Below, piece after piece: positions 287 to 7,001 of a stretch of DNA of 7,001 nucleotides (position 1 is the first letter of the stretch; every line of letters starts with the position of its first letter). The translations under genes were made by a program, and so were the position numbers. The stretch is taken from contig RFHZ01000560.1 of the NCBI GenBank assembly GCA_003696125.1, positions 1 to 7,001 of the forward strand, in the 5' to 3' direction. A model generated the notes under the pieces. It ran no database searches. It had not been told where the DNA came from and saw only the letters and a list, made by a program, of their open reading frames with translations. The DNA is from Nitrospinota bacterium. Its GTDB lineage: Bacteria > Tectomicrobia > Entotheonellia > J063.

Positions 287-1459
287 ATGATTCGTTCTTG
301 TAGAGAGAGCTTTCCCTCAAAGCTGCTGCTTCTCCTGGTGATCTTCTGGGGGTGGGGGAGCTGCTCCCTCACCCTGGCTCAAGGAGACAGGGAAGAGATA
401 CGGGTCTTGTTACAGGAAGGGGTGGAACAGGTCACCATTGTCGGCACACGGAGCTATCAGATCCTCTCCCCTTCCTCTCCTTTGCTCCACCTCTCCCGCC
501 AGGTCACCATCAGGGCAGAGAAAAAGGGTATGATCATTGCTAAAGTTTTCTATCCGGTGCAGCGACTCCTCTTCCGGTCGTCCCAGCCGGAGAACCGTTT
601 TGGAATCGGGTCTTACCAGTATCGAGGAGAGCTGGAGGTGCGGCAGACCGGTCCAGGGAGGTTGCAGGTCATCAACGTGGTACCGCTCCGTTACTACCTC
701 TACGGGGTGTTGCCCCAGGAGATCGACCCTGACTGGAAGATGGAGGTTCTCAAGGCCCAGGCCGTTGCGGCCAGGACCTATGCCCTGTACCGGAAAATGG
801 GCTCTGCGGGGCGGGAATATGATGTGCGTGCCGATGTTTGGGATCAGCTTTATCGAGGGTATACGGGAGAGGATCCGCGTACCAACAGGGCGGTAGACGA
901 GACCGCAGGTGAGATCCTGGTATACAAGGGAAAACCGATCGCCGCCTATTACCATGCCGATGCCGGTGGCTATACCGAGGATAGCCGTTATGTCTGGTCG
1001 ATCTCCTACCCCTACCTCCAGAGTGTCCGCTCCTTCTACGGTGCAGATTCTCCTTACGCCACCTGGGAGTTGACCCTCTCCACTACCGAGATCGGCCGGC
1101 GATTCCGGGCCGCCGGATATCCGCTAGATGAGGTCACAGGGGTGACCGTGGTGCAACGGAGTCCGACCGGAAGGGTCTTGCTGGTGAAAGTCCACCACAA
1201 GCGAGGAGTGCTGTGGCTGAAAGGGACGACTTTCCGCAAGATCATCGGGATAAATACGCTCCTGAGCACCCTCTTTTGGACCCAGAAGAAGGGAGGGAAG
1301 ATCCATTTTCAGGGACGAGGTTGGGGCCATGGAGTGGGACTTTCCCAATGGGGAGCAAAGGAGATGGCGGAACTGGGATTTACCTATCCGGAGATCCTCC
1401 AGTTCTACTATCGGGGTGTAACGCTTACACAGGTAAACGGGAGGAAAGACACACCATGA
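287..1459 (+). CDS. Secreted SpoIID/LytB-domain protein
   Basis: This 390-residue protein has a hydrophobic N-terminal signal (about 13-31, likely cut after TLA). A poorly defined region of about 75 residues follows, then a SpoIID/LytB domain (about 113-380). Family marks are GVLPQEI at 140-146, KAQAVAARTYAL at 156-167, YYHADAGGYTED at 221-232, and near the end GRGWGHGVGLSQWGA at 343-357. In Bacillus SpoIID, a lytic transglycosylase that cleaves glycan strands lacking stem peptides, the glutamate of this LPxE segment is catalytic; E145 is the equivalent here. The Cys found after the conserved His in sporulation SpoIID is missing, which fits the LytB-like group of non-sporulating bacteria. The role is inferred to be peptidoglycan binding or cleavage outside the membrane. 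The start is fixed by an in-frame TGA at 260-262, but the AGAGGG at 281-286 touches the ATG. The stop overlaps the next gene (ATGA, 1456-1459). Confidence 0.9.
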   Translation: MIRSCRESFPSKLLLLLVIFWGWGSCSLTLAQGDREEIRVLLQEGVEQVTIVGTRSYQILSPSSPLLHLSRQVTIRAEKKGMIIAKVFYPVQRLLFRSSQPENRFGIGSYQYRGELEVRQTGPGRLQVINVVPLRYYLYGVLPQEIDPDWKMEVLKAQAVAARTYALYRKMGSAGREYDVRADVWDQLYRGYTGEDPRTNRAVDETAGEILVYKGKPIAAYYHADAGGYTEDSRYVWSISYPYLQSVRSFYGADSPYATWELTLSTTEIGRRFRAAGYPLDEVTGVTVVQRSPTGRVLLVKVHHKRGVLWLKGTTFRKIIGINTLLSTLFWTQKKGGKIHFQGRGWGHGVGLSQWGAKEMAELGFTYPEILQFYYRGVTLTQVNGRKDTP

Positions 1460-2944: not shown

Positions 2945-2981
2945 CAGGAGACGCGTAGCGAGCCAAGAATAGGGGAAAGGG

Positions 2982-4337
2982 ATGGAAGAGTATAACGCCT
3001 GGTTTGAATGTATCAAGGGATGTGAAGGGCGGTATGCCCTTACCGACATCATCTACCGGTGTCCCCGCTGTGGCGACCTGCTGCAGGTGGCGCACGATAT
3101 GGACAAGCTCCGCCAGAAGTCCCCCGCAGAGTGGAAGCGCCTGTTCGACGACCGGTACATGCGCAACACCTATCCGTACGGGAGTGCCGTCTGGGGCAAG
3201 AAGGAGTGGGTCTGCCCCCAGATCGACAATGCCAACGTGGTCTCCATGTACGAAGGGGGAACCAATCTCTTCTGGGCCGACCGGCTCGGTCAGCAGATCG
3301 GGGTGACCGATCTCTGGGTCAAGCAGTGTGGAAACAGCCATACCGGTTCCTTCAAGGATCTGGGAATGACGGTCCTGGTGTCGGTGGTCAAGCAGATGAT
3401 CGCCGATGGCCAGCAGATCAGGGCCGTGGCCTGCGCCTCTACCGGTGATACCTCGGCAGCCCTGGCCGCGTACTGTGCGGCGGCCGGGATCCAGGCCGTC
3501 GTCTTCCTCCCCCGCAATAAGGTCTCCATCGACCAGTTGATCCAGCCGATTGCCAATGGAGCCCTGGTCTTCTCCATCGACACCGATTTTGATGGGTGCA
3601 TGCAACTGGTGCAGGAGGTTACCAGCAAGCACAACATCTATCTGGCCAATTCCCTGAACTCGCTCCGCATCGAAGGGCAGAAGACGGTGAGTATCGAACT
3701 GGTGCAGCAGTTCGACTGGGAGGTGCCCGATTTCGTCATCATCCCCGGGGGCAATCTGGGTAATGTGACCGCTCTGGGCAAAGGGTTTTTGATGATGTAT
3801 GACCTCGGGCTGATCGATAAGCTGCCCCGCATTGTCTGTGCCCAGTCTGAGCGGGCGAATCCCCTCTACCGGAGCTATCTCACCGGATTCAAGGAGTACA
3901 AGCCGATCGTCGCGCAGCCGACCCTGGCCAGTGCCATCCAGATCGGCAACCCGGTCAGCATTCACCGGGCTATCGCCATTCTCAAGCGGTTTGACGGCAT
4001 CGTGGAGCAGGCCAATGAGGATGAGCTGGCCAACGCCTCGGCCCAGGCAGATCTGACCGGGATGTATACCTGTCCCCATACCGGAGTCGCCCTGGCGGTA
4101 CTCTTCAAGCTGGTGGAGCGGGGAATCATTCGTCCCCAGCATCGGGTGGTGGTGATTTCGACGGCACACGGGTTAAAATTTACCAATTTTAAAGTGGCAT
4201 ACCATGAACAAAAACTTCCCGAGGTCACGTCACGTTTTGCCAATCCTCCCCTACAACTCCCGGCAGACTATAACCAGGTCGAGCGGGCGATCCTGGAACA
4301 TTTAGAGCGGGAAGACAAAAGTAAGGTTGATTGGTAA
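2982..4337 (+). CDS. thrC: Threonine synthase, plant-like, with N-terminal zinc ribbon
   Basis: This PLP enzyme converts O-phosphohomoserine and water to threonine and phosphate, the last step of threonine synthesis in the cytoplasm. It has 451 residues. An N-terminal ribbon with Cys10, Cys14, Cys27 and Cys30 probably binds zinc. The PLP lysine is K125 in [13 protein letters not shown] (117-129). [10 protein letters not shown] (151-160) is the substrate and cofactor loop, PGGNLGN (255-261) the phosphate-cradle glycine loop, and STAHGLKFT (393-401) a conserved C-terminal segment. From memory, long blocks such as [19 protein letters not shown] (189-207) and the region 85-130 are nearly those of chloroplast threonine synthase, which is activated by S-adenosylmethionine. 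The ribbon cysteines are, as I recall, missing in plants. An in-frame TAG at 2970-2972 and AGGGG at 2971-2975 fix the start. A 38-nt gap separates it from the cystathionine gamma-synthase gene. Whether S-adenosylmethionine acts on this protein is unknown. Confidence 0.93.
4173..4192. repeat. AT-only inverted repeat inside the end of thrC
   Basis: TTAAAATT 4173-4180 and AATTTTAA 4185-4192 form a perfect 8-bp inverted repeat around TACC. It lies in codons for the conserved GLKFTNFK segment and is much more AT-rich than its surroundings. TAAAAT at 4174-4179 resembles a -10 box but has no matching -35. It could be a protein-binding site ahead of the next gene, or simply codon choice. Confidence 0.3.
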
Positions 4338-4361
4338 CAGCCTGGGGAACAGGTCCATACA

Positions 4362-4378
4362 GAGGGATGGTTTCTATG
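4362..4378 (+). promoter_or_regulatory. Ribosome binding site that decides the cystathionine gamma-synthase start
   Basis: GAGGG at 4362-4366 is followed by two in-frame ATG codons, at 4367 (no spacing) and 4376 (9-nt spacing). Only the second has a workable distance, and it gives an N-terminus that begins just before the conserved STRAVHGG. A TTG at 4331 is in frame too but has no ribosome binding site. Confidence 0.6.
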
Positions 4379-5560
4379 ACAGATGGGTATCTCGGCTTTT
4401 CAACGCGCGCGGTTCATGGAGGTGAGGAACGTCGGAAACCGGAACACGCGTTAACCACACCGATCTTTCAAACCTCGACCTATTCTTTTCAGAATACGGC
4501 AGAGCTTATCGAATACATGGAGGGGCGGATCGAGCGGGAAGAGTACGGCCGGTACGGGAATCCGACGCAGCGGGTGGCAGAGAAGAAGATCGCTGCCCTG
4601 GATGGGGCGGAGGATGCCCTCCTCTTTTCCAGCGGTATGGCCGCGATCACCACCATCTTTTTCGGGATGCTCTCCCGGGAGAGCCACCTGATCCTGACCA
4701 GCGATGGGTACCGGCGGACGCGACAGTTCTGCTCCACACTGCTGCGCAAGCTGGGGGTGGATGTCTCTGTTATCGATATCCAGGATGGGTACGAAAAGCT
4801 GGAAAACTCGATTCAGGAAAATACCCGCCTCATCTTCTCCGAGTCTCCCACCAACCCTTACCTGCATGTCCTGGATCTGGAACGGGTGGTGGCCATTGCC
4901 AAACGCCACCGGGTCAAGGTCGTGATCGACAGCACCTTTGCCACTCCCTACAACCAGCAGCCGCTCCGCTGGGGGGTGGATCTGGTGGTGCACAGTGCCA
5001 CCAAGTATCTCGGCGGGCATAACGATCTGCTGGCCGGTGTGGTGACCGGTTCTTCCTATCTGATCGGTGCGCTACGGGACGTGCAGGCCATGCTGGGGGG
5101 GATCATCGATCCGCACAGCGCCTACCTCCTGCTGCGAGGGTTAAAGAGCTTTAGCCTGCGCCTGGCCAAGCAGAACGAGAATGGCCAGCGCATCGCCGAG
5201 TTCCTGGCCCAGCATCCCCGGGTCAAGGCGGTATACTACCCGGGCCTGCCGAGCCATCCCCATCATGCCATCGCTACACGGCAGATGCGGGGATTTGGCG
5301 GGGTGGTCAGCTTTGAAATCGATGGAGATTTAGAGACGACGAGCCGCTTTATCGATCGGCTCAAGATTCCCTATATTGCCCCGAGTCTAGGGGGAGTAGA
5401 GAGCCTGGTGGAACAGCCAGCCCTCATGTCGTACTATGAGATGGATCCAGAAGAGCGGCGGCGTATCGGGATTACAGATGAACTGGTCCGCCTCTCTTTA
5501 GGCATCGAAGATGCCGAAGATCTGATTGCAGATTTGCAACAGGCTCTGGATGGAATCTAA
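4376..5560 (+). CDS. Cystathionine gamma-synthase-type PLP enzyme, plant-like
   Basis: This 394-residue member of the Cys/Met-metabolism PLP family should join cysteine to an activated homoserine to make cystathionine, the first committed step of methionine synthesis by transsulfuration. Visible marks are STRAVHGG (9-16), YGRYGNPT (57-64) with the phosphate-binding Y57 and R59, SSGMAA (85-90), D185 in the cofactor-ring contact, HSATKYLGGHNDLLAG (206-221) with the PLP lysine K210, and R372 in LVRLSLGIED, the usual carboxylate-binding arginine. GYRRTRQF (111-118) is the plant-type segment, where most bacterial family members have a YGGTxRLF-like sequence. The C-terminal third, including GFGGVVSFEIDGD (306-318) and KIPYIAPSLGG (330-340), is close to remembered plant sequences. 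Plant enzymes use O-phosphohomoserine, so that substrate is inferred here, supported by the adjacent threonine synthase. The N-terminal regulatory region of plant enzymes is absent. Gamma-lyase or O-acetylhomoserine sulfhydrylase activity cannot be excluded. I would call it metB-like but leave the symbol open. Confidence 0.88.
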   Translation: MTDGYLGFSTRAVHGGEERRKPEHALTTPIFQTSTYSFQNTAELIEYMEGRIEREEYGRYGNPTQRVAEKKIAALDGAEDALLFSSGMAAITTIFFGMLSRESHLILTSDGYRRTRQFCSTLLRKLGVDVSVIDIQDGYEKLENSIQENTRLIFSESPTNPYLHVLDLERVVAIAKRHRVKVVIDSTFATPYNQQPLRWGVDLVVHSATKYLGGHNDLLAGVVTGSSYLIGALRDVQAMLGGIIDPHSAYLLLRGLKSFSLRLAKQNENGQRIAEFLAQHPRVKAVYYPGLPSHPHHAIATRQMRGFGGVVSFEIDGDLETTSRFIDRLKIPYIAPSLGGVESLVEQPALMSYYEMDPEERRRIGITDELVRLSLGIEDAEDLIADLQQALDGI

Positions 5561-5577: not shown

Positions 5578-5595
5578 GAGGGGGGGACCCTGGTG
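5578..5595 (+). promoter_or_regulatory. Ribosome binding site selecting a GTG start
   Basis: GAGGGGGG at 5578-5585 lies about 7 nt before GTG 5593 and about 13 nt before the in-frame ATG 5599. The spacing favours GTG, though ATG two codons later would change little. Confidence 0.5.
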
Positions 5596-5934
5596 ATCAT
5601 GAGATCTCTGTGGCGTATCGGTAGCTATTTCCTCTACTGGCTCCGCTTGCTCCCCCACCTGCCCAACTTCTTGCGACTCTGCTGGCGCCTGTTCTGCGAT
5701 TCCCGTGTTCCGCTCCGCCTGAAAGGGATGGTGGTGGCAGCCTTCCTCTACCTGCTCCTGCCGGTCGATCTGTTGCCTGACTTCCTGCTCCCTTTTGCCG
5801 GCCAATTCGACGATCTTACCCTTCTCCTCTTGACCCTCTATTTCTTTATCCGCTGGAGTCCCAAAGAGGTGGTGGCCGAACATGTGATGGCCATCGATAA
5901 GACGCGGGGAGGCTTTCCGCACTGGCAGCAGTAA
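5593..5934 (+). CDS. YkvA/DUF1232 family small membrane protein
   Basis: This 113-residue protein matches the DUF1232 (YkvA) signature. D36-S-R-V-P40 and K44 are followed by a hydrophobic stretch and LLPVDLLPDFLLPFAGQFDD (55-74), which contains the diagnostic P-x-DLLPD and G-x-x-DD. A second hydrophobic segment runs about 75-87, then SPKEVVAEH (89-97), a typical family ending. The first 35 residues are basic and aromatic and may lie on the membrane surface. The biochemical role of this family is not known. The gene starts 32 nt after the cystathionine gamma-synthase stop and is probably transcribed with it, but nothing in the protein ties it to amino acid synthesis. It ends 10 bp from the stop of the converging propeller gene. 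Confidence 0.85.
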   Translation: MIMRSLWRIGSYFLYWLRLLPHLPNFLRLCWRLFCDSRVPLRLKGMVVAAFLYLLLPVDLLPDFLLPFAGQFDDLTLLLLTLYFFIRWSPKEVVAEHVMAIDKTRGGFPHWQQ

Positions 5935-5944
5935 GGGAGAAATT

Positions 5945-7001
5945 TCACCGCTTGAGGGCTTCGGCCCTCTCTGGCTCTGCCAGCGGAGGGGATCCCTTCT
6001 CTGGCAACGAAAGAAAGCGGATGCGCATTCCCTGCGGGGTATGGATCTGGTAGGCAAGCATTCGATTGGCCGGTGACCAATAGAGCAGGGGGGAGAGGGG
6101 AGCCTGCGGCTGCAGGAGAAGGGATACTCCTGCCTTCTCCCCTGGGGAGGTGGGGAGATCGAGTTGATAGATGGCCCGCCTGCCTTCCCCCCCTTCTCCG
6201 ACGTACAGGAGACGATCATCCCCTACCCAGAGCGGTCCCTGCGGAGAGAAGACAACCCGATCGCTCACCATCTGGATCGATGCTGGACGGTCTGCTGACA
6301 GGAGATACAACCTCCACCTGTCCCGGGAAGGGGCGTAGAAGGCCAGTCTTTTCCCATCCGGAGACCAGACCGGACAGGGAGGAGAGGGGGGGGAGAGGTG
6401 AGTAAGACGCGAGACGACCGCCTCTTTGCCGTTACGAGGGGTATAGAGGTAGATATCGAATCCCTTCTCCCGTTTGGCTGCCAGGGCGATGGCGTTCCCG
6501 GTGGGAGACCAGGTCGGACAGGCGATCTGGTCAAACGATTGGGGCAAGAGCTGTACCGGTTCCCAGGTGAGAGGGAGGGGTTTCCCCTGGCTCCCATCTG
6601 CTATCAAGTCCTGCCAGAACAGCTTCCCTCCCTGCACATAGAGAAACTGGGGGCGGTGGGGGGTCCAGGAGATGGCCGTGCTTTTCTCCTGCAGGCGAAG
6701 CACCAGACCGAGTATGGTGTCTCCCTGGCCCAGATAGAGCGCTTTGCCCTCTCCCATCGGAATGGCCAGGAGGTAGTACCCGGTACCGACCGACCAGTGG
6801 AAATCAACGGCAGGAGCAGGTAAACCGGCCAGCGAGGCGACTCCCCACTCCCCTTCGGCGATCTGTACCCGCCGGTCCAGCAAAAATCGCTCCAACCAGA
6901 GTTCATCCCGCTCGGGAAAATGCTTCTGCACCGCATAGGTTTTCCCATCCGGAGACCAGCCCAGGAAGAAGAGGTCTACCGCTGCCGTCTCTGTGTCCTG
7001 G
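5945..7001 (-). CDS. TolB/PD40-type beta-propeller protein, 5' end beyond the window
   Basis: The reading frame is open from the right edge (first full codon ends at 7000) to a TGA at 5947-5945, giving 351 visible residues; the N-terminus is missing. Repeated WSPDGK-type blade motifs occur at visible residues 15-20, 164-169 (WSPTGN), 212-217, 251-256 (FSPQGP) and 308-313 (WSPANR), each followed by a short beta-strand such as RLAFYA or MLAYQI. SWTPHRPQFLYV at 111-122 looks like one more, degenerate blade. This spacing fits a six- or seven-bladed TolB-like propeller. Such proteins are usually periplasmic or lipoprotein scaffolds, but the signal peptide, if any, lies outside the window. No catalytic domain is visible. 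A GTG at 6931 is not the start, because the first blade motif continues upstream in frame. The partner is unknown, and the gene is transcribed toward the other five. Confidence 0.8.
   Translation of the reverse strand, partial: QDTETAAVDLFFLGWSPDGKTYAVQKHFPERDELWLERFLLDRRVQIAEGEWGVASLAGLPAPAVDFHWSVGTGYYLLAIPMGEGKALYLGQGDTILGLVLRLQEKSTAISWTPHRPQFLYVQGGKLFWQDLIADGSQGKPLPLTWEPVQLLPQSFDQIACPTWSPTGNAIALAAKREKGFDIYLYTPRNGKEAVVSRLTHLSPPSPPCPVWSPDGKRLAFYAPSRDRWRLYLLSADRPASIQMVSDRVVFSPQGPLWVGDDRLLYVGEGGEGRRAIYQLDLPTSPGEKAGVSLLLQPQAPLSPLLYWSPANRMLAYQIHTPQGMRIRFLSLPEKGSPPLAEPERAEALKR
5954..5983. terminator. Paired hairpins at the convergent gene junction
   Basis: GAGGGC-TTCG-GCCCTC (5954-5969) is a perfect 6-bp stem with a UUCG tetraloop on the plus strand. 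CTGGC-TCT-GCCAG (5971-5983) follows after one base. They lie 20 nt past the YkvA stop, inside the last codons of the propeller gene. No T-tract follows on either strand, so if this ends transcription it is a non-canonical or Rho-assisted site, or a 3'-end stabiliser for the plus-strand mRNA. Confidence 0.45.

Follow-up and report, generated by a model that had tools for sequence, protein, structure and literature searches.

A plant-type gene pair of the O-phosphohomoserine (OPH) branch point, in which a threonine synthase (TS) gene is followed by a cystathionine gamma-synthase (CGS) gene, is probably present in this bacterium, and OPH is the likely substrate of its CGS. The window, which is the whole stretch of DNA analysed here, is an entire contig, the 7001-base C910, from a draft assembly of 4.18 Mb (G000; 990 contigs, 94.8% complete, 8% contaminated). 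We considered this contig as a gross contaminant and rejected the idea: its GC content of 0.584 and tetranucleotide distance of 0.112 are within the range of the assembly's other contigs.

Organization of the gene pair and the proposed branch point

The preliminary description placed the two genes side by side with a short gap, and both open reading frames and the gap are found as it claimed, on one strand (Table 1). Both frames are intact and encode the catalytic lysines. An AGAGGG sequence is located about 9 nt 5′ of the CGS ATG at 4376; this start codon is a better fit than the TTG at 4331. The gap, when scanned, displayed no terminator-like site, and an Rfam search of the window matched no family and returned no riboswitch.

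Table 1. Features of the window and, in the last row, SepCysS genes at two other loci.
Feature	Position	Strand	Remarks
SpoIID-like protein	287-1459		neighbour gene
CPA2-type cation:proton antiporter	ends at 2856		neighbour gene
Purine-rich stretch	2968-2981	+	probable ribosome-binding site, directly 5′ of the TS ATG; identified by eye
Plant-type TS	2982-4337	+	451 aa ORF; thrC model, Arabidopsis match, tree
TS PLP lysine K125	codon 3354-3356	+	equivalent to Arabidopsis K163
TS-CGS intergenic gap	4338-4375	+	38 nt
Plant-type CGS	4376-5560	+	394 aa from ATG 4376; PF01053, tobacco match, tree
GYRRTRQF	4706-4729	+	CGS residues 111-118
CGS PLP lysine K210	codon 5003-5005	+	equivalent to tobacco K261
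DUF1232 protein	5593-5934		neighbour gene
Beta-propeller protein	5945-6931	opposite	neighbour gene
SepCysS genes	L095 6005-7126 and L096 4198-5316		see text

In plants, TS and CGS compete for OPH, the former for threonine and the latter for methionine. We propose the following model, in which TS and CGS would form a small, presumably co-transcribed operon of the OPH branch point. Homoserine kinase, encoded elsewhere in the genome, would make OPH. The plant-type TS would convert OPH to threonine, and the plant-type CGS would combine OPH with cysteine to give cystathionine with the release of phosphate. A second PLP enzyme of the PF01053 family would then probably cleave cystathionine to homocysteine.

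Relationship of TS and CGS to the plant enzymes

The TS passes the NCBIfam thrC model TIGR00260 (215.9 bits, cut-off 167.1) with its PLP lysine present, and its best match among solved structures is the Arabidopsis enzyme (1e5x, 591 bits), the next structure scoring 196 bits. The alignment with plant TS (1E5X/2C2B) extends along residues 8-437 of the window protein and begins at Arabidopsis residue 46; the resemblance to the plant SAM-activated TS is one of sequence similarity alone. In the TS tree, a moderately supported placement (82 to 92) nests the Arabidopsis protein among bacterial plant-type enzymes, beside those of genomes G153 and G278. This high score and shared clade bear out the earlier designation of the TS as plant-like, but the type is common in bacteria, not rare. 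In a sample of 290 genomes spread over the domain, about 39 carry a plant-type TS, defined by an identity of 55% or more, which rules out the notion that a plant-like TS is exceptional in bacteria and makes the TS half of the finding ordinary. Furthermore, the source assembly contains a second TS of the ordinary bacterial type (contig C939, L194 1204-2412; PRK08197, 621 bits) that is about 29% identical to the window TS, which thus need not be the sole threonine synthase. In one relative (G003:C1:1090892-1092216), the plant-type TS is distributed over two overlapping frames, a split that probably reflects a frameshift or sequencing error.

The CGS matches PF01053 with 461 bits, and its best solved structure is tobacco CGS (1i41/1qgn) with 424 bits, the next one scoring 321 bits. 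None of the NCBIfam equivalogs among those shown reaches its cut-off: the acyl-homoserine CGS model (MetB, TIGR02080) scores 333 bits against 504.55, the methionine gamma-lyase model (TIGR01328) 396 against 549.7, and another CGS-family model 397 against 600. The YRRTR segment (residues 112-116) aligns with YRKTR of tobacco CGS (residues 163-167), with R113, R114, and R116 corresponding to tobacco R164, K165, and R167. The two central positions of this motif are R-R in all 14 proteins of the YRRxR set (R-K in tobacco) and glycine in 87 of 90 and 74 of 90 other CGS relatives, respectively. Relatives with a Y-R-R-T/S-R motif are found in 13 of the 290 sampled genomes and in a named Thermoflexus MAG, and a sister set carries YK(K/Q)T or similar.

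Less common than the plant-type TS is the clade to which the window CGS and tobacco CGS belong. This 16-row clade (bootstrap 99, SH-aLRT 96) comprises all YR-x-TR proteins together with tobacco CGS and is sister to the YKKT set; jointly, they form a 23-row clade (100/100) that lies apart from E. coli MetB and from the second PF01053 enzyme of the source genome. A 114-row tree also groups the window CGS with tobacco CGS. Within the clade, tobacco CGS joins the proteins of G278 and G072 (98/92), and this join is tentative because all three have long branches. The TS and CGS trees contain one plant sequence each, taken from the structure-match alignments. Both the resemblance of GYRRTRQF to the plant Y-R-K-T-R segment, which the preliminary description had pointed out, and the grouping of the two proteins with plant enzymes, which it had offered as a check, are seen in the alignments and trees.

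The window CGS shares with tobacco CGS (1QGN/1I41) the family, the clade, the basic region, and the PLP lysine. It differs in being bacterial, in being paired with a TS gene, and in the arginine at the position of tobacco K165; since the alignment begins at tobacco residue 59, the plant N-terminal region is absent from it. E. coli MetB, an O-succinylhomoserine-dependent CGS, belongs to the same PF01053 family and has the same reaction type, but it is 37% identical to the window CGS, has GG where the latter has RR, and falls in a separate clade.

Plant CGS accepts O-acyl-homoserines in vitro. Clade membership therefore does not fix the substrate, which in the cell is set by supply as well as by the enzyme. 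The trees, the motif, the presence of homoserine kinase, and the recurrent adjacency described below all favor the branch-point reading of the preliminary description; the choice of OPH as substrate we infer from sequence.

Methionine-pathway genes and alternative explanations

The source assembly contains a homoserine kinase gene (thrB, 209 bits, cut off at a contig edge), and searches of it detected no MetA, MetX, or HcyBio. As it holds only two full-length PF01053 proteins, no MetY was detected, either. The second of these proteins is closest to the CGS model PRK07811, scoring below its cut-off, and is probably a cystathionine lyase. MetX was likewise not found in the Thermoflexus MAG carrying the same CGS type. 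The absence of MetA and MetX was rejected as an argument in its own right, since 51 of 90 CGS-family genomes outside the YRRxR set (57%) show neither and the absence is therefore non-discriminating. Regarding the prediction that an organism using OPH would need no homoserine acyltransferase for methionine, thrB was found and neither MetA nor MetX was detected, but this incomplete assembly also yielded no methionine synthase, and two genomes of the source organism's class (G001 and G002) have MetA alongside the same CGS type.

The latter observation bears on the leading alternative, in which the CGS, sharing no more than ancestry with plant CGS, would depend on acyl-homoserines in the ordinary way, and the acyltransferase would be missing from the fragmented assembly. 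We consider this unlikely. It fits the division of the assembly into 990 contigs, from which methionine synthase is also missing, and the occurrence of an acyltransferase beside the same CGS type not only in G001 and G002 but also in G064 and G205, which have MetX. In all four of these genomes, however, which are the only ones with a YRRxR CGS and an acyltransferase, the latter adjoins a MetY-type sulfhydrylase that can use its product, so that the acyl-homoserine has its own consumer. The same holds in the wider CGS clade for four of the six other genomes with MetX (G016, G148, G164, and G123); no MetY is within view of MetX in G044 and G278. As MetX and MetY also adjoin in the unrelated G019 and G023, this adjacency argument is supportive, not decisive. 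We did not count a weak 138-bit MetX match in G004, because it adjoins what by eye is an FAD oxidoreductase-like gene, with no MetY in view. Direct sulfhydrylation by MetX or MetA plus MetY is thus an alternative route to homocysteine in G001, G002, G064, and G205, whereas none of its genes was detected in the source genome. Finally, the window CGS shares its YRRTR motif with the OPH-using plant enzyme, and E. coli MetB lacks it.

Somewhat less likely still is a methionine auxotroph that has retained TS and CGS as a relic or for salvage but makes no methionine, a reading that may overlap with OPH use by the CGS itself. Neither a PF02574 (MetH type) nor a PF01717 (MetE type) methionine synthase was found in the source assembly, and the control genomes were positive, which points to either an assembly gap or a methionine auxotroph; an unknown enzyme would be a third option. 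The intact frames with their catalytic lysines and a base composition matching that of the rest of the assembly argue against a relic, and in a MAG that is 95% complete, metH could also plausibly have been missed.

It is very unlikely that the CGS-family protein is an OPH sulfhydrylase (forming homocysteine from OPH and sulfide) or a methionine or cystathionine gamma-lyase: the similar scores of the methionine gamma-lyase and CGS-family models, neither of which it passes, would allow this, but it groups with tobacco CGS, which leads its solved-structure matches by about 100 bits, and its motif and linkage to TS indicate OPH, which lyases do not use.

Linkage of TS and CGS across bacteria and the origin of the plant pathway

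A TS gene followed by a CGS gene on the same strand is found in four families, with gaps of 38 nt in the source organism, about 17 nt in G153, 2 nt in G123, and 45 nt in G278. Random adjacency in genomes with several thousand genes should, by a rough estimate, yield well under 0.1 cases of this kind. A YRRxR CGS is accompanied by a plant-type TS in six of seven family-level lineages, and the other CGS-family genomes show such a TS in 8 of 90 cases (Fisher p of about 2e-5, uncorrected for shared ancestry).

Several of these loci have further features. The pair of G278 (L111 3499-6051) contains a divergent CGS with a YRHTR motif, and the trees place both of its proteins close to their plant counterparts. 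In G059 (L094 5560-9273), a YRRTR CGS lies downstream of a cysteine-synthase-like gene and a serine O-acetyltransferase gene, a cysteine-to-cystathionine cluster, and the YRRxR CGS of G205 adjoins a metF-like gene. SepCysS (O-phosphoseryl-tRNA:Cys-tRNA synthase) is encoded near a YKKT-type CGS in G123 and G260 (504 and 517 bits), and in one of these two genomes it adjoins the TS-CGS pair. Cysteine formation by way of a phospho-amino acid is found here beside a possible such route to cystathionine.

With Arabidopsis TS placed beside G278 and G153 and tobacco CGS beside G278 and G072, the plant CGS and TS appear to fall inside bacterial diversity, and the source organism would be one of several such bacterial lineages. 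It is possible, albeit doubtful, that the linked pair of at least four bacterial families constitutes the OPH branch point of threonine and methionine, usually regarded as a plant trait, and that a bacterial lineage with the two genes as neighbors was the source of both plant enzymes.

In reviews, the synthesis of methionine is assigned to OPH in plants and to acyl-homoserines in bacteria. OPH is described as the plant route in PMC4523565 and PMC13257386. GapMind leaves out pathways whose occurrence in bacteria is uncertain (PMC7311316). A search of the open-access literature returned no description of a bacterial CGS that depends on OPH. Apparent methionine gaps in genomes that lack MetA and MetX would be explained by a bacterial clade that combines the plant-type enzyme with its motif and branch-point partner. 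Such a clade would also supply simple enzymes for the study of phosphate-ester specificity, and would bear on where plants acquired the pathway.
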